Source: Thermoleophilia bacterium
GTDB taxonomy: Bacteria > Actinomycetota > Thermoleophilia > Gaiellales > SKUG01
DNA length: 17,274 bases
Direction: 5' to 3'
Assembly: GCA_020438525.1 (NCBI GenBank)
Contig: JAGQUL010000095.1
Span: 1-17,274, forward strand
In this document: piece by piece, positions 2,958-17,274 of the stretch
Numbering within the stretch: position 1 is the stretch's first letter
Layout of the letters: every line of letters starts with the position of its first letter
Position numbers and translations under genes: made by a program
Notes under the pieces: model-generated
Seen by the model: the letters and a program-made list of their open reading frames with translations, nothing else
What the model was told of the DNA's origin: nothing
Databases searched by the model: none

Positions 2958-3419
2958 GTGGGGAACGACGCAGCAGTGCGACTGCCGCTGCAGACACGAT
3001 TCGCAACCGACCCGACCGGCACACGCTGGCGCGTCTCGGTCCGATGGATGCCGTGGGGGCTGCGCTTTCGTGGCGGTGACGAGGCGCTGGGCGTGTTCGA
3101 CCTCGGCTCGTTCGCTGGCTTCAGCGACGGCTGTGCCGTGTTGTTCGTCATCCTGGTCGTGCTCGCGATGATCCCCGTGGCGTTCTTCATCGTCGAGCTG
3201 GGCGTGTTCCTCATCGTGTTCGCGGTGGTGGTGCTCCTCGGCGGCCTGACCGGCCTGCGACAGTGGGCGATCGAGGTGGAGTCGGTGCCGTCCGGAACCG
3301 TTCGCTGGATCGTGTCGCGCCAGCGAGGCGTCGGTGCGGCAGATGCAGCGCTGACCGCGGTTGCCGAAGCGATCGAGCACGGGGCCTGGACGCCCCCGCG
3401 CCACACGCCCGAACCGTGA
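2958..3419 (+). CDS. Hypothetical two-helix membrane protein
   Basis: 153 residues from a GTG at 2958, preceded by GGAG at 2945-2948. The frame is open upstream to an ATG at 2733, but that part is opposite the Gly-zipper gene and reads as its shadow. Seen: a basic and aromatic N-terminal domain with a WRVSVRWMPWGLRFRG stretch, two adjacent membrane segments (about 57-79 and 80-100), then a soluble tail (101-153) with a QWAIEVE motif and an amphipathic helix. I recall similar two-helix proteins with a tryptophan-rich N-terminus as uncharacterised actinobacterial proteins, but I cannot name the family. The next + gene begins 67 bases after the stop and could share the transcript. Confidence 0.6.
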   Translation: MGNDAAVRLPLQTRFATDPTGTRWRVSVRWMPWGLRFRGGDEALGVFDLGSFAGFSDGCAVLFVILVVLAMIPVAFFIVELGVFLIVFAVVVLLGGLTGLRQWAIEVESVPSGTVRWIVSRQRGVGAADAALTAVAEAIEHGAWTPPRHTPEP

Positions 3420-3486
3420 CGCGCGAGCGCGCAACGAACCCATCGGCCCGCTCGATATCCGGGCAGGGGCGACCAGGGGCCGGCAC

Positions 3487-4926
3487 GTGGATGTCACGGG
3501 GATTTCCAGATCGATCGCGAGCGGCGAGCTGCCGGTGGCAGTCGTGCGCGTGGTCGAGCGCGCCGACCTGCCGCATCACCTCGGTGCCGCAGGCGAGGCG
3601 ATTGATGTCGCGCTGCACCTGCGCCCCGGATCGCTCACGCCGGTGGCCGACGCACGCGATGCCGCGCAGCTCGTGATGCGCCGCGCCGGCGAGTACGACG
3701 CCGTGTGGAACGGCTGGAAGCCCGGTGTGGTGGACGAACGCTTCCCCTTCCATGCCGCGCTGATGGACGGTTCCGGGCACTGGCACGTCGCGTCCCTCGA
3801 CCCCTACGTGGCCGGTGAGCGGGTCGTGAACGCACCGCTCGCGGGTTACGTGCTCAACAACTCCACCGACCACATCGCCACGCGCACCACCGACGAGCTT
3901 CGGCTCGTCGCCCATCGCGGCTTCGGATTCTCGTTCCGCCCCGGCGATATGCAGGTCGCCGGACGACGCATCCACGAGATGCCGCTTCGAGCGCTCGGCG
4001 ACACCTATCGTGCCCCGGTGGTGGACGCCCAGGTTCGCCGCGTCGTCGAGCACCTCGACGAGCTCGCAGGCACGCTCGACGACATCGCGCCGCAACGCCA
4101 TGGTCTGGAGCTGCGCCCCTCGATCCGGCTCGGCGACCCGGGCGTGTCGACTGCGCACGCCCAGCGCAGCGCGGCCGACCAGCGCCTCCAGGACGCGATC
4201 GAGGAGCTCGGCCGGCCGATGCCCGACGAGGTCACGACCGCCACGCCCGACGCAGCGCTGCGAGCCGCGGCGGATCAGCTGCGCACCACCCTCCGCGCAG
4301 TTCGCGAGGACATCGCGACGACGTATCCGCGCTCCCATCAGGAGACGATCGACCCGGACGCGTGGCGACCGATCATCGATCGCTCACGCGCAACGCTCCG
4401 CGCGCTTGAGGGGGCTCCCCGCGCAGCGGACCAGCGGCCGCTGGCCGCGTTCGATGCGCTCGTCGAGCGACTGCGCGGCGCAAGCCGCGACTCGCGCGAG
4501 GCATCGATTCGCTCGTTCCGCTACGAGGAGTTCGGTCGCACGCCGGGCGAACGGATCCGCAACTTCGCGGTCGCGTACGAGGCGCTCGAGGACGGCGTGG
4601 GCTTCTCCGACGCCGCGGTCGCCCGCCTCAAGTCCTGGCTGCGCGCGATCGCCGACGACGCCGCAACGCTCCGCTCCGAGCTGCCCGAAGACCAGCAGAA
4701 GCTGGTGCCGCTGCTCGACGCGGTGGAGGAACACGCACGTCGCAACGGCGTGCCCGGGGTCGTCGTCAACGCCCAGGGAATCGCCGGCTACGACGTGTTC
4801 CCCGACTTCGCGGAGATCGGCCGGATGAGCGCATCCCTGCGCACGTACCTCGCGATCGACGACGCGACCGGCGCGGCCGGTGCCGCGAAGGACGTGCCGA
4901 TCGCGGGCGAGCTGCTCACCTGGTAG
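3487..4926 (+). CDS. Hypothetical protein of unknown function, 479 residues
   Basis: I do not recognise this protein. The chosen start is the GTG at 3487, with AGGGG ending seven bases upstream; the frame is open further 5' but overlaps the preceding gene. No signal peptide or membrane segment is seen, so it is probably cytoplasmic. Residues 1 to about 165 look like a beta-rich globular domain with many aromatic and His residues, for example WNGW near 74-77 and GHWHVASLDPY near 97-107. From about 180 to 420 it is mostly charged and helical, with Arg/Glu/Asp/Ala-rich helices that could be coiled. The end (about 421-445) carries a GVPGVVVNAQGIAGYDVFPDF segment that looks like a small folded element. 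Codon use is like that of the neighbours. It is transcribed toward pcm, with a hairpin between the two genes. Confidence 0.8.
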   Translation: MDVTGISRSIASGELPVAVVRVVERADLPHHLGAAGEAIDVALHLRPGSLTPVADARDAAQLVMRRAGEYDAVWNGWKPGVVDERFPFHAALMDGSGHWHVASLDPYVAGERVVNAPLAGYVLNNSTDHIATRTTDELRLVAHRGFGFSFRPGDMQVAGRRIHEMPLRALGDTYRAPVVDAQVRRVVEHLDELAGTLDDIAPQRHGLELRPSIRLGDPGVSTAHAQRSAADQRLQDAIEELGRPMPDEVTTATPDAALRAAADQLRTTLRAVREDIATTYPRSHQETIDPDAWRPIIDRSRATLRALEGAPRAADQRPLAAFDALVERLRGASRDSREASIRSFRYEEFGRTPGERIRNFAVAYEALEDGVGFSDAAVARLKSWLRAIADDAATLRSELPEDQQKLVPLLDAVEEHARRNGVPGVVVNAQGIAGYDVFPDFAEIGRMSASLRTYLAIDDATGAAGAAKDVPIAGELLTW

Positions 4927-7237: not shown

Positions 7238-7714
7238 TCAGGCGTCGCGACGAAGCGCGCCGAGCAGCATCGTGAGCCGGCGCCTGTGCACGGCGAGCGA
7301 GCGATCCGGATCATCCGACACGAGCGCGGCGTACATCGAGTGCGCCGCGCTCGTCGCGTCTCCGGCCAGCAGCCGCGCTGCGCCGAGCGCCGCCGGCAAC
7401 GCCGCAACGTCCGGGTGCGCGCGCCAGGCATCACCCAGCACGACCTCCGCCCGCGGCGCGTCGCCCGCCAGCACGGCAGCGACCCCGTCGACGATCGCCA
7501 GGTACGGCACCAGCTCGGCGGGCACGCCGTGTGCGCGCGCCTGCAGCGCCGCCTCGACCGACCCCGCAACGTCACCCGCATCGAGCAGGTCGACCGCGGC
7601 ACGCAGCCGCGCGACTCCCGCATGGTCGAGGTCCAGGTGCGCGTCGAGCGGATCAGGCGCGGGGCCGTGCTCGCCGAACGGGTCGTCGCCACCGGATGTT
7701 GCATGCTCGTCCAC
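7238..7714 (-). CDS. Small TPR-like helical protein, function unknown
   Basis: 158 residues from a GTG at 7714. The frame is open upstream to 7789, but the extension would overlap the start of sufS and is Arg/Gly-rich, whereas the GTG has a TATCGT box six bases before it. The N-terminal 30 residues are acidic and Gly/Pro-rich and likely disordered. The rest is a series of Ala/Leu-rich helices with TPR-like spacing (LLDAGDVAGSVEAALQA, VLAGDAPRAEVVLGDAWRAHP, LLAGDATSAAHSMYAAL), probably three repeats. No signal peptide or membrane segment is seen. It is divergent from sufS with only 62 bases between the starts, so both promoters overlap, which hints at joint control. No specific function can be named. 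Confidence 0.72.
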   Translation of the reverse strand: MDEHATSGGDDPFGEHGPAPDPLDAHLDLDHAGVARLRAAVDLLDAGDVAGSVEAALQARAHGVPAELVPYLAIVDGVAAVLAGDAPRAEVVLGDAWRAHPDVAALPAALGAARLLAGDATSAAHSMYAALVSDDPDRSLAVHRRRLTMLLGALRRDA

Positions 7715-7720
7715 GTGGCG

Positions 7721-7726
7721 ACGATA
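7721..7726 (-). promoter_or_regulatory. Likely -10 box for the TPR-like gene, leaderless
   Basis: TATCGT on the minus strand ends six bases before the GTG at 7714 and supports that start. There is no Shine-Dalgarno. Confidence 0.45.
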
Positions 7727-7762
7727 GCCGCACCCGCCGACGCACCCACGCCCCTGCGGCCG

Positions 7763-7768
7763 TAGGAT
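7763..7768 (+). promoter_or_regulatory. Likely -10 box for sufS, leaderless
   Basis: TAGGAT ends eight bases before the ATG of sufS and fits TANNNT. There is no Shine-Dalgarno between box and start. Confidence 0.45.
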
Positions 7769-7776
7769 CAGACCCG

Positions 7777-9054
7777 ATGAGCGACGCACCCATGCACTCC
7801 CCGACTCCCGCCGCGACGATCGACCCCGAGCGCGTCAGCGCCGACTTCCCGATCCTCCAGGTCGGCCCCAACACGGGCCGCCGGCTCGCGTTCCTCGACA
7901 GCGCCGCCAGCGCGATGAAGCCGAACGCCGTGATCGACTCGCTGCGCGAGACCTACGAGACCGCGTACGCGAACGTGCACCGCGGCGTGTACCACCACGC
8001 AGCCGTCGCCACCGATCGCTTCGAGTCGACGCGCGAGAAGGTCCGCGCGCTGCTCAACGCGCGCAGCGCCCGCGAGGTGATCTTCACGCGCGGCACCACC
8101 GAGGCGATCAACCTCGTCGCCTACTCCTGGGGACGCGCGAACCTCGGCCCGGGCGACATCGTGGTCACCACGCAGCTCGAGCACCACTCCAACCTCGTGC
8201 CGTGGCAGCAGGCCTGCGCCGCGACCGGCGCCGAGCTCCGCTTCATCGAAGTGGACGACGACGGCGTGCTCGACACGTCCGACCTCGAGCGCCTTGCCGC
8301 GGGAGGTCGCGTTCGAATGGTGGCCGTGGTCCACGCATCCAACTCGCTCGGCACCATCGTTCCGCTCGACGTCGTCGTGCCGTGGGCGAAGTCGCACGAC
8401 GCGCTCGTGCTCGTCGACGGCGCACAGAGCGTGCCGCACCGCCCCGTGGACGTGCAGGCGCTCGGCATCGACTTCCTCGCGTTCAGCGGGCACAAGCTGA
8501 TGGGCCCGAGCGGCGCCGGTGCCCTCTGGGGTCGCGAGGAGCTGCTCGCCGAGATGCCGCCGTGGCAGTTCGGCGGCGAGATGATCCGTCGCGTCAGCTA
8601 CGACGCGACCACGTTCAACGACCTGCCATGGAAGTTCGAGGCCGGCACTCCCGCGATCGCCGAGGTGATCGCGATGGGTGCCGCGATCGACTACCTCCAC
8701 TCGATCGGCGGCCTCGCCGCGATCCATGCGCACGAGCACGACGTGACCGGCTACCTGCACCAGCAGCTGCTCGAGATCCCCGGCCTGCGCGCGCTCGGCC
8801 CGCCGCCCGGCGTCGAGCGAGGCGGCGTGGTGAGCTTCACGATGGAGGGCACGCACCCGCACGACATCGCCACGCTGCTCGACCAGCAGGACGTGAACGT
8901 GCGCGCCGGCCACCACTGCACGCAGCCGCTGATGCAGCGCCTCGGCGTGCACGCCACCGCCCGCGCCAGCACCTACGCCTATACGACCCGCGGGGACGTC
9001 GATCGGCTCGTCGAGGGCCTCGACGAGGTCCGGCGCGTGTTCAAGCTGGCCTGA
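7777..9054 (+). CDS. sufS: Cysteine desulfurase SufS
   Basis: 425 residues. This PLP enzyme takes sulfur from L-cysteine as a protein persulfide for Fe-S assembly. Seen in order: FLDSAASAMKP near the N-terminus, the NVHRGVYHHA segment, TRGTTEAINLVA, the QLEHHSNLVPW motif, the PLP-binding DGAQS (Asp214), the Schiff-base Lys240 in FSGHKLMGPSG, the FEAGTPAI segment, and the catalytic Cys381 in RAGHHCTQPLM. The last two motifs are typical of the SufS group (type II) rather than IscS. The start at 7777 has a -10-like box just before it; Met6 is an alternative start. sufU follows after 39 bases. sufB and sufD lie about 5.9 kb upstream on the same strand, separated by unrelated genes. Confidence 0.96.
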   Translation: MSDAPMHSPTPAATIDPERVSADFPILQVGPNTGRRLAFLDSAASAMKPNAVIDSLRETYETAYANVHRGVYHHAAVATDRFESTREKVRALLNARSAREVIFTRGTTEAINLVAYSWGRANLGPGDIVVTTQLEHHSNLVPWQQACAATGAELRFIEVDDDGVLDTSDLERLAAGGRVRMVAVVHASNSLGTIVPLDVVVPWAKSHDALVLVDGAQSVPHRPVDVQALGIDFLAFSGHKLMGPSGAGALWGREELLAEMPPWQFGGEMIRRVSYDATTFNDLPWKFEAGTPAIAEVIAMGAAIDYLHSIGGLAAIHAHEHDVTGYLHQQLLEIPGLRALGPPPGVERGGVVSFTMEGTHPHDIATLLDQQDVNVRAGHHCTQPLMQRLGVHATARASTYAYTTRGDVDRLVEGLDEVRRVFKLA

Positions 9055-12080: not shown

Positions 12081-12148
12081 GCGCCAACGAGCTTTCTCCA
12101 CCCCCTGGTGAAGGCCCCTGGCCGGGCCGTATCCGCTGGCAGCTGCGT

Positions 12149-12186
12149 CGTGCAGCGTGCGACGACCGTCCGTTGCACGCTGCATG
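12149..12186 (+). repeat. Long hairpin, 16-bp stem with six-base loop
   Basis: Arms 12149-12164 and 12171-12186 pair over 16 positions with two G-U wobbles when read as + strand RNA; the loop is ACCGTC. It lies 69 bases after the stop of the gene at 11538. It is the strongest stem I found in the window. It is not followed by a T tract. Confidence 0.75.
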
Positions 12187-12203
12187 CCGCTCGCCCCTGG
12201 ATG

Positions 12204-13095: not shown

Positions 13096-13128
13096 GGCCC
13101 GACGCGCGCATCGTTCGCACGTCGGGCC
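13096..13128. terminator. Hairpin between convergent genes
   Basis: GGCCCGACG (13096-13104) and CGTCGGGCC (13120-13128) are perfect nine-base arms around a 15-base loop. They lie between the + gene ending at 12949 and dcd, which ends at 13176 on the minus strand. A bidirectional terminator is likely from position; there is no T tract. The rest of the 226-base gap shows nothing I can name. Confidence 0.5.
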
Positions 13129-13816: not shown

Positions 13817-15118
13817 TCAGCCGATGCCGATCATGTCGGCGGTCGCGGCCGCTGCGCGGTCGAGCGGATCGGGGAACGTCTCGAGCACAGCCCGCTCGAC
13901 TGCGTCGCGCTGCGTCTGGAGCGGGGGACGACGACCGGCCGGTGCGTGCTCGAGCAGGTCGTCGAGCAGCGCGAGCAGGCGCCGCTGCACCTGCAGCGAA
14001 CCGCGGCCGGCGACGCGGATCTCGTCGAGCGCGAGCGATACCCGGTCGCTCCATGATGCGACCGGGATCCATGCGCGTGGGTGCCCGTCGTCGCCCCTGA
14101 TCCAGGGATCCGGATCGGCGCGGGTCGCGAGCAGGGCCAGCGCATCGTGGATCCGATCGATCGCCTGCACGGCAGTGGTCGGATCGTTCACGCCCGGCGA
14201 CAGCGCACGCAGCGCGATGTCGACGAGCTGGCGCAGGCCGAAGGAGAGGTCGTCCTGCATCGTGCGCTCGACGTCGAACGACATCGCGGCCGCAACCTCG
14301 GCAGCGGGAAGCTGCGCTCCCGGGGCGAGGCCGTGCACGCGGGCGACTGCAGCGCCGGCTCGAACGAAGGAGCCGCCCCTGACCAGCAGCTCGATCACGC
14401 AGCCATGCCTGCGTGCGGCGTTCGCCAGCTCGCTGCGATCGACGTGCACGAGCACCGCGCCTGCGGCATCGTGGTGCAGCAGCGGCCCGTCGTCGCTGAA
14501 CGGATCATGGCTCGGGTCGATGCCGAGTGGCTCGGTCTCGTAGGGCCTGAGGTCGTCGACGATGGCAGAGCGCAGCTCGGCAGCGATCGTCTCGATGATG
14601 TTCACGGCACGGATCGAGTGGGAGATGTGGTCGATGTAGGCGATGAAGAGCGCGATCGAGCCCAGCGTGAGGACGAACAGGCCCGTCATCGCCAGGTCGG
14701 GCACGACCACGCCGGAGCCGTCGACGTGGCGGATCAGCAGCAGCGCGTAGGCGAGGGTCGACACGTACGCGCCGAGCGTGACCTTGGTGAGCCGGTCGCG
14801 CAGGAACCCGCGCAGCGCGCGCGGCGAGAACTGGCTGGAGGCGAGCTGGAGCGCCACGACGGTGATCGAGAACACCACGCCGATGAAGCCCATCATCGCG
14901 CCGGCGATCGTGGAGGCGATGTCGCGGGCGGCCTTCGGATCACCGCTGAACGCGAGCAGCTCGGGCAGGTCGTGCTGCTGCTCGTCGAGGCGCAGGAGCA
15001 GCGCGAGCGTCGCGAGCGACACCGCGACCATCACGGTGGGCGTGAACCACAGCGACGCGCGGATGCGCTCGGTGAGGTTCTCCAGGGACGGTCGGCGACG
15101 GTGCACGAGACGGGTCAT
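13817..15118 (-). CDS. DUF2254 family membrane protein
   Basis: 433 residues from the ATG at 15118. Four membrane segments are likely near residues 24-43, 68-92, 112-129 and 142-164. A large cytoplasmic or periplasmic soluble domain follows, with the family signature LSPGVNDPTTA (306-316) and a helical C-terminus. This is the layout of the uncharacterised DUF2254 family, whose function is unknown. The open frame extends to 15247, but the extra 43 residues are Arg-rich and overlap the start of the aminotransferase gene, so I chose the inner Met. It has only GCGGGA right before it, so the start is not certain. The gene is upstream of dcd on the same strand (71-base gap) and divergent from the aminotransferase. 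Confidence 0.87.
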   Translation of the reverse strand: MTRLVHRRRPSLENLTERIRASLWFTPTVMVAVSLATLALLLRLDEQQHDLPELLAFSGDPKAARDIASTIAGAMMGFIGVVFSITVVALQLASSQFSPRALRGFLRDRLTKVTLGAYVSTLAYALLLIRHVDGSGVVVPDLAMTGLFVLTLGSIALFIAYIDHISHSIRAVNIIETIAAELRSAIVDDLRPYETEPLGIDPSHDPFSDDGPLLHHDAAGAVLVHVDRSELANAARRHGCVIELLVRGGSFVRAGAAVARVHGLAPGAQLPAAEVAAAMSFDVERTMQDDLSFGLRQLVDIALRALSPGVNDPTTAVQAIDRIHDALALLATRADPDPWIRGDDGHPRAWIPVASWSDRVSLALDEIRVAGRGSLQVQRRLLALLDDLLEHAPAGRRPPLQTQRDAVERAVLETFPDPLDRAAAATADMIGIG

Positions 15119-15195
15119 TCCCGCTGCAGCGTGGCGGAAACGATCGCCGTGGCTCGTGGCGCGCCTCGCGCGCACGCGGGGAACAACTGCGCTGC

Positions 15196-15201
15196 TAGCA
15201 T
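15196..15201 (+). promoter_or_regulatory. Possible -10 box for the aminotransferase gene
   Basis: TAGCAT lies 33 bases before the ATG at 15235, which has its own ribosome-binding site (GGAAGGA, 15223-15229). This gives a normal short leader, unlike the leaderless boxes elsewhere in the window. No -35 is evident. Confidence 0.4.
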
Positions 15202-15234
15202 CGAGGCGAATCCATCTCGACCGGAAGGACCCGC

Positions 15235-16581
<1,347 letters not shown>

Positions 16582-16597
16582 CGGGTATGGCGTGGCC

Positions 16598-16993
16598 ATG
16601 TCCACGCTTGCCTTGATCGGTGTCGCCGGCGCAGTCGCCGCATCCGCACTGCACGTCGCGTTCTGGTGGCTCGAGAGCATCACGTTCCGCCGACCCGCGG
16701 TGTGGAGCCGCTTCGGCGTCGAGTCGCAGCGTGACGCCGACGTGATCGCGCCGATGGCCTTCAATCAGGGCTTCTACAACCTGTTCATCGCGATCGGCAC
16801 GCTCGTGGGCGTGGTGATCCTGCTCGACGGCGACACGCAGCTCGGCTGGTCGATCATGCTGTTCGGCTGCGGCATGATGGTCGGCGCGGCGTTCGTGCTC
16901 GCATCCACGACCTTCCAGCTCTGGCGCGCAGCGGTCATGCAGGGCGGTCCGCCGCTCGTGTGCATCGTGACCGGCGTGTTCGCGCTCACCTGA
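16598..16993 (+). CDS. DUF1304 family small membrane protein
   Basis: 131 residues with four membrane segments near 4-27, 55-77, 83-104 and 115-130. The hallmarks of the uncharacterised DUF1304 family are seen: a His and Glu in the first helix region (ALHVAFWWLESITF, 17-30), a polar stretch with a Phe-Gly turn (RFGVES), and an Asn-Gln-Gly motif opening the second helix (FNQGFYNLFIAIG, 55-67). The ATG at 16598 is 16 bases after the aminotransferase stop, so the two may be co-transcribed. A GTG two codons upstream is an alternative start. TATGGC ends six bases before the ATG and could be a weak leaderless -10. The repeat array begins 10 bases after its stop. The function of the family is unknown. 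Confidence 0.85.
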   Translation: MSTLALIGVAGAVAASALHVAFWWLESITFRRPAVWSRFGVESQRDADVIAPMAFNQGFYNLFIAIGTLVGVVILLDGDTQLGWSIMLFGCGMMVGAAFVLASTTFQLWRAAVMQGGPPLVCIVTGVFALT

Positions 16994-17003
16994 CGAGGCG
17001 CGG

Positions 17004-17274
17004 GTAACGAAGTTGGGCGTATGGCCGCATTTCGTTACGTGGGTGATTGGAACGGGCCGTGCTCGTCGGGGTGCACGTAACGAAAGTGGGCTATATGCCG
17101 CATTTCGTTACGCGGGTGATTGGAACGGGCCGTGCTCGTGGGGGTGCACGTAACGAAGTTGGGCGTATGGCCGCATTTCGTTACGTGGGTGATTGGAGCG
17201 GGCCGTGCTTGTGGGGGTGCACGTAACGAAAGTGGGCTATATGCCGCACTTCGTTACGCGGGTGATTGGAACGG
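17004..17274 (+). repeat. Tandem array of a 73-bp palindromic repeat, A-B-A-B, open at window end
   Basis: Four units begin at 17004, 17077, 17150 and 17223 with an exact 73-base period; the last is cut by the window end after 52 bases. Each unit starts with a 35-base imperfect palindrome whose arms are GTAACGAA and TTCGTTAC, with an inner GGC/GCC stem and a five-base loop. A conserved 38-base linker ending in GTGCAC follows. Units 1 and 3 (A) have loop GTATG; units 2 and 4 (B) have loop TATAT and differ from A in two bases near the outer stem and one base just after it. Units two apart are more alike than neighbours, so the copied block is the 146-base A-B pair. The stretch contains no gene. 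It directly follows the DUF1304 gene. Confidence 0.93.

Follow-up and report, generated by a model that had tools for sequence, protein, structure and literature searches.

The final 271 bases (positions 17004–17274) of the 17,274-nt window, i.e., the whole stretch of Thermoleophilia DNA that was analysed, form a tandem array in which palindromic units of two types follow each other head to tail, in one orientation and in the order A-B-A-B. With a probability of about 0.7, we regard the array as a locus-specific intergenic minisatellite, each unit of which consists of a hairpin-forming palindrome and 38 bp of flanking sequence, located behind the last visible gene of a probable operon. It is a real yet fairly ordinary bacterial tandem repeat, REP- or VNTR-like in character, and no new mechanism is needed to account for it.

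Organization of the tandem array

Four units were found on the forward strand at an exact spacing of 73 bp (starts at 17004, 17077, 17150, and 17223), in agreement with an earlier note on this DNA. Unit 1 (type A, 17004–17076), unit 2 (type B, 17077–17149), and unit 3 (type A, 17150–17222) are each composed of a 35-nt palindrome (17004–17038, 17077–17111, and 17150–17184, respectively) followed by a 38-nt linker (17039–17076, 17112–17149, and 17185–17222, respectively). Unit 4 (type B, 17223–17274) has its palindrome at 17223–17257 and a linker that ends at the window edge at 17274, with 52 of the 73 bases present. Tandem Repeats Finder described the array both with a period of 73 bp (3.7 copies, score 426, 88% matches) and with a period of 146 bp (1.9 copies, score 514, 96% matches), the latter outscoring the former. 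A search of the window with the palindrome pattern at ≤ 3 mismatches yielded eight matches, i.e., the same four places on both strands and no further copy elsewhere in the window, compared to 0 matches in 200 shuffles.

Units 1 and 3 differed at 3 of 73 positions, all of them in the linker, and units 2 and 4 at 1 of 52 positions, on the 3′ side of the palindrome, while type A and type B units were separated by 9 or 10 differences. As A-A and B-B pairs differ less than A-B pairs, we infer that the A-B dimer was duplicated after the two types had split. The earlier proposal that an A-B block of 146 bp was duplicated recently is thus upheld, both by these differences and by the higher score of the longer period. 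The alternation itself was also confirmed, with all five loop bases differing between type A (GTATG) and type B (TATAT), although by eye a shifted common TAT would also describe this change, in place of five substitutions. Two constant differences had been missed previously, namely a T → G change at position 10, which abolishes a T-A pair in the register used, and a T/C difference at position 37. Compared with the A loop, the B loop agreed at 0/5 bases in direct orientation and at 3/5 after reverse complementation; an inversion of the loop between the types was considered on this ground, although five bases are too short for a judgement.

Assemblies frequently break at repeats, and the array does reach the last base of the window, as an assembly artefact at a contig end might. 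However, the units differ at several places, the longest exact repeat within the array measures 48 bp, and the longest window suffix recurring earlier is 25 bases long. The array is therefore not one unit walked repeatedly, and we consider an artefact extremely improbable.

Predicted folding and variation of the stem

Each unit opens with its 35-nt palindrome, which comprises eight perfect outer pairs, variable positions 9–12, an inner GGC/GCC stem, and a 5-nt loop. Of the eight- to nine-base inverted repeat described earlier, the eight arm pairs were perfect in 4/4 units, whereas the ninth pair was absent from unit 4 (hereafter B4). Single-strand folding of all four plus-strand palindromes resulted in −15.6 to −17.5 kcal/mol (z −4.95 to −5.9 against shuffles of the same letters), and two minus-strand palindromes folded at −12.3 and −14.6 kcal/mol (z −3.7 and −6.1). 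Two linkers were folded as well, and their stability did not exceed that of shuffles (z +0.86 and +0.68), and whole 73-nt units reached only z −1.7 to −2.0. The fold of the full array (z −9.9 against shuffles) is expected of repeated palindromes as such, since pairing then also occurs between the arms of different units.

The stability of the array hairpins is ordinary against the G+C-rich background of the window (69.5% G+C). In 40 random 130-nt stretches of the window, the best hairpin averaged −18.5 kcal/mol (sd 4.1, strongest −26.7), with 22/40 stretches reaching −17.2 kcal/mol. Among 12 gene ends, which were chosen by eye, the first hairpin of the array with its flanks (−22.2 kcal/mol) ranked seventh; six of the 11 other ends carried a stronger hairpin, three of these near −31 kcal/mol.

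Stem variation was evaluated pair by pair. In the register pairing positions 9 with 27 and 10 with 26, type A units contain G.T and T-A, unit B2 contains A-T and a G.A mismatch, and B4 contains A.C and G.A. The earlier proposal that the ninth position remains paired (a G-T wobble in type A, A-T in type B) accordingly holds for A1, A3, and B2 and fails for B4. In an alternative register with A9 bulged (G10-C27, T11-A26, G12-C25), B4 folds at −17.5 kcal/mol, so that its one change strengthens an alternative stem; yet it is a single, one-sided change. Over all 13 pairs, 11 were invariant, one varied on one side, one departed by unpaired cells only, and none changed on both sides. The proportion of paired cells (92.3%) was no higher than the shuffle mean (93.2%), with only three distinct rows entering the comparison. 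Stem covariation or preserved pairing, as claimed earlier, was consequently not recovered, with shuffles doing at least as well.

The inner stem and the outer arms are kept, as had been stated, with 22 stem bases identical in 4/4 units; both 8-bp arms are invariant, as are other columns. The chance of sparing all 22 stem bases was estimated at ~0.08 for ~7 separate change events and at 0.014 when the changes are taken singly (12 in number). This invariance in four units is compatible with selection without demonstrating it. The stronger statement that the fold is under selection was not borne out, given 0/13 pairs changed on both sides, a paired share at shuffle level, and a stem-sparing P of ~0.08.

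Genomic context

The array is preceded on the plus strand by a gene for a DUF1304 protein (16598–16993, 131 aa; Pfam PF06993 at 94 bits with a cut-off of 26.9, query from 16601; start and stop codons checked), whose product had no NCBIfam match. Ten nucleotides separate its stop codon from the first palindrome. Upstream, at a distance of 16 nt, lies a plus-strand gene for a class-III aminotransferase of the 4-aminobutyrate transaminase type (15235–16581; Pfam PF00202, 371.5 bits), for which the best NCBIfam models were GABA transaminases, all under their cut-offs. Judging from the short gap, the two genes probably form one operon. The nearest relatives of the aminotransferase bearing an organism name were Thermoleophilia MAGs, and in the genome_contigs collection the nearest loci were L001 (82% identity; genome G001) and L002 (79%). 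No comparable array was present 3′ of the aminotransferase gene in these two nearest genomes. DUF1304 was detected in 1/129 genomes of the order of G001, at a locus of 3,360 bases (L114) that contained no arm 8-mer and, as tandem repeat, a single weak one of 27 bp.

A protein-coding array was rejected, as the longest inner frame spans 59 aa and the 73-bp period is not a multiple of three. A canonical intrinsic terminator (stem-loop with T-run) was called 0 times in 15001–17274, compared to a shuffle mean of 1.1, and a known structured RNA family was likewise rejected with 0 Rfam matches at gathering score in the window. A CRISPR array was dismissed, since the 38-nt linkers are near identical instead of being unique spacers. 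Integron attC core sites read GTTRRRY / RYYYAAC; by eye, the arms of the array show GTTACGT or GTTACGC and ACGTAAC and do not fit this pattern.

Elsewhere in the window, strong hairpins of ~−31 kcal/mol without a T-run behind them were noted at 7320–7354, 12146–12189, and 13096–13128. By their appearance, the latter two are more promising as terminators than the hairpins of the array, and the one at 7320–7354 falls within an opposite-strand frame. A 521-aa open frame at 3361–4926 had no Pfam match at E ≤ 0.001.

Distribution of the unit and its arms

The exact 35-nt palindrome pattern was found 0 times in both the genome_contigs and the viral_contigs collections, and blastn of 16994–17274 against plasmids and phages gave no match at E-values up to 1. 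Within the order of G001, blastn at E-values up to 10 gave matches in 129/129 genomes, with five candidates scored in each (best E-value 0.0016 among the matches listed); those listed spanned roughly 16–36 nt, mostly of G+C-rich linker, and were taken as chance. A full copy of the unit was not found in 399 genomes of the class. Allowing ≤ 3 mismatches, the palindrome was matched in 2/399 class genomes, with 0 control matches among the matches listed. Neither match was accepted as a copy of the palindrome: the first (L112), located within long open frames, retains the inner GGGC/GCC while its arms are altered at three positions, and the second (L113), a single hairpin that is intergenic by eye, has both arms at equal spacing but a different inner stem. 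The arm-only pattern GTAACGAA...TTCGTTAC occurred in 3/399 class genomes, the backwards control also giving three (G213, G274, and G386); in smaller sets, it gave 0/3 and, for the order of G001, 1/129, the control being without a visible match in the latter set. As no collection searched contained a full unit, the unit is private to the host lineage so far as those collections reach. The Y1_Tnp domain of REP-associated tyrosine transposases was found in 0/2 relatives and in 5/14 control genomes. Among the matches listed, no publication on this array was recognised by title or abstract opening in literature searches on Thermoleophilia palindromic repeats, actinobacterial minisatellites or hairpins, higher-order arrays, and MIRUs.

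With a looser arm pattern, 22 loci with one such palindrome apiece were retrieved from the viral_contigs collection, and the linker piece of the host array that was searched for was found in none of them. One of these loci (L156, IMGVR_UViG_3300046789_000016) carries 12 copies of GTAACGAA/TTCGTTAC at 221–494, partly as an inverted set and in a stretch that is non-coding by eye; four of the 12 belong to an 11-bp tandem repeat (GTAACGAAAAC × 4.6). By eye, the stretch resembles a group of clustered sites for protein binding, or a region of iteron type. Another locus (L158, IMGVR_UViG_3300040980_000031) holds six copies of the GTAACGAA 8-mer at 7523–7815 and two more elsewhere (eight in total); some copies form short inverted repeats in non-coding-looking sequence and appear operator-like by eye.

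Tandem arrays in relatives

A baseline for arrays of this kind was obtained from 901,874 bases, made up of 200,000 bases of G058, 200,000 of G065, 310,825 of G001, and 191,049 of 14 other loci. Tandem Repeats Finder reported eight rows with a score ≥ 200 and a period ≥ 30, located at six places, and every period was a multiple of 3. The one examined in more detail (L122:17419–18319 in G058, order of G001) consists of a 189-bp unit × 4.8 with 99% matches. Its start coincides with the stop codon that closes a gene for a GYD-domain protein, and ~80 bases separate its end from an opposite-strand frame without a Pfam match. Minus-strand frames with borderline Pfam matches only cross this array, and its period is a multiple of 3; in our own reading, it is non-coding despite these frames. 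It resembles the host array in having near-identical tandem copies, hairpin-forming segments, and a start directly behind a gene, and differs from it in its unrelated sequence, longer unit, and period divisible by three.

Comparison with known repeat and terminator classes

Head-to-tail copies at one locus, which characterise minisatellites and VNTRs, are present in the array (73 bp × 3.7 and 146 bp × 1.9). The MIRU/VNTR minisatellites of mycobacteria are likewise intergenic tandem repeats of actinobacteria with about the unit size of the host array. MIRUs, however, constitute a family at many loci, whereas the host array occupies one known locus and its unit is a hairpin.

As a 35-nt palindrome behind the DUF1304 stop codon, the unit has the length (20–40 nt) and extragenic position of a REP. 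According to the available text of PMC3733652, REPs are defined by a GTAG or CGTC tetranucleotide at one end; the unit begins with GTAA instead. BIMEs share the regularly spaced extragenic palindromes with the host array, but as far as described in the accessible part of PMC2817692, they are linked to RAYTs and their palindromes alternate in orientation, head-tail pairs being rare, whereas 4/4 host units point the same way and Y1_Tnp was not found in the two relatives. Closest in arrangement are the SMAG elements of Stenotrophomonas maltophilia, a GTAG-tagged REP family whose palindromic monomers and dimers are repeated in tandem together with flanking DNA, as the palindromic units and dimers of the host array are (PMC2613905, in the text available). 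In contrast to the GTAA-ended host unit, for which no dispersed copy was found, SMAGs are GTAG-ended, occur chromosome-wide, and make up ~0.5% of the genome (same source, same part). For three Actinomycetota genomes, RepRanger gives 152–705 putative REPs in one table column, whose heading lies outside the available part of PMC12306157, and these counts carry no weight in the present comparison. The array behaves like a REP-type tandem cluster but is not classed as REP.

Hairpins within ≤ 80 nt of the stop codon, often clustered and without need of a U-run, were described by Gupta and Pal as marks of bacterial termination, including in two actinobacteria, and the authors cite gyrA of M. smegmatis, where two tandem hairpins behind the gene terminate better than a single one (PMC8355165, available part). 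In the same part of that paper, a hairpin cluster is defined by hairpins < 15 bases apart, and the discussion asks that hairpins be no closer than 30 nt to the stop codon. The host array resembles such clusters (as described there) in having several T-run-free hairpins within 80 nt of the stop codon, beginning at 10 nt and thus inside the 30 nt; its hairpins differ in being near-identical copies 38 nt apart.

Discussion

That the array is one cluster of a genome-dispersed, REP- or BIME-like palindrome moved by a REP-associated tyrosine transposase would agree with the 35-nt palindrome, the mismatches within its stem, its extragenic position directly behind a gene, and the two alternating types. 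We nevertheless hold this to be unlikely, as the GTAG or CGTC end is lacking, no second copy occurs in the window, of the two near matches among 399 class genomes one lies inside long open frames with altered arms and the other lacks the inner stem, Y1_Tnp was found in 0/2 relatives, and all units share one orientation, unlike the BIMEs described in PMC2817692 (available part). With no dispersal found, no Y1_Tnp in the two relatives, and no Rfam match at gathering score, the dispersed-element, small-RNA, and attachment-site readings suggested earlier are all unsupported. Less probable still is a cluster of binding sites in which a protein reads GTAACGAA half-sites in double-stranded DNA and the hairpin is a by-product of their pairing. 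The arms invariant in 4/4 units (other columns likewise), the period of 73 bp corresponding to 6.95 and hence close to 7 helical turns, and the 8-mer clusters in 2/22 viral loci speak for it. Yet a distance of 27 bp (2.57 turns) separates the two half-sites of each palindrome, which is awkward for a single dimer, such a protein would have no need of the inner GGC/GCC stem or of the linker, the remaining 20/22 viral loci hold just 2–4 copies of the 8-mer and none of the loci has the linker piece, and the arm search in the class genomes equals its control (three and three). On the basis of the clusters in L156 and L158, one might go further and suppose that a DNA-binding protein common to this Thermoleophilia-like lineage and some phages, by descent or convergence, recognises GTAACGAA as its half-site, and that the 73-bp array serves this protein as a platform of many helically phased sites with interchangeable loops; this we consider very improbable.

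The weighing of an entirely functionless array, grown by slippage at the hairpin, against one with a role for its hairpins takes place within the minisatellite interpretation. Neutrality agrees with the lack of stem covariation, the lack of a second copy in the genome, viral, plasmid, phage, and class-genome searches, and the few changes, whose placement by chance is plausible (P ~0.08 that 7 events would leave all 22 stem bases untouched). Against it stand the arms unchanged in 4/4 units, the similar position of the L122 array directly behind a gene, and the G+C content of the array (58.7%), which is below that of the window. The earlier note named four conditions for a neutral minisatellite, namely an array ending within a unit or two, no occurrence elsewhere, no stem covariation, and no transcript; by the second and third of these, the array leans to a minisatellite. 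With so few units to judge by, we rate pure neutrality as somewhat short of an even chance. Because the array adjoins a gene end, starting 10 nt behind the DUF1304 stop codon, its most natural function would be one at the mRNA 3′ end. If transcribed, the hairpins could conceivably act there in termination or end protection; with only the stem being important, the loop could vary freely. The absence of a called terminator in 15001–17274, the ordinary first hairpin (−22.2 kcal/mol, with 6/11 other gene ends stronger), and both the 38-nt spacing and the 10-nt distance set against the < 15 bases and at least 30 nt in the available part of PMC8355165 count against this proposal. We put the odds of a real 3′-end role at roughly one in three, and those of plain neutrality a little above this.

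Under the preferred reading of a locus-specific minisatellite, the array most likely grew through slippage or unequal exchange, which would have acted first on a hairpin-bearing unit and later on the A-B dimer. An ancestral 73-bp unit would have been duplicated, the two copies would then have drifted into types A and B, and the A-B dimer would have been duplicated afterwards by either process.

The array adds one documented palindromic tandem array, with two unit types and a dimer period, for a poorly studied actinobacterial class, and the L122 array is a second, unrelated example in the order of the nearest relative. If arrays behind genes are common in Thermoleophilia, they would be useful as strain markers and would allow testing for an influence of repeated hairpins on the 3′ ends of mRNAs in bacteria rich in G+C.
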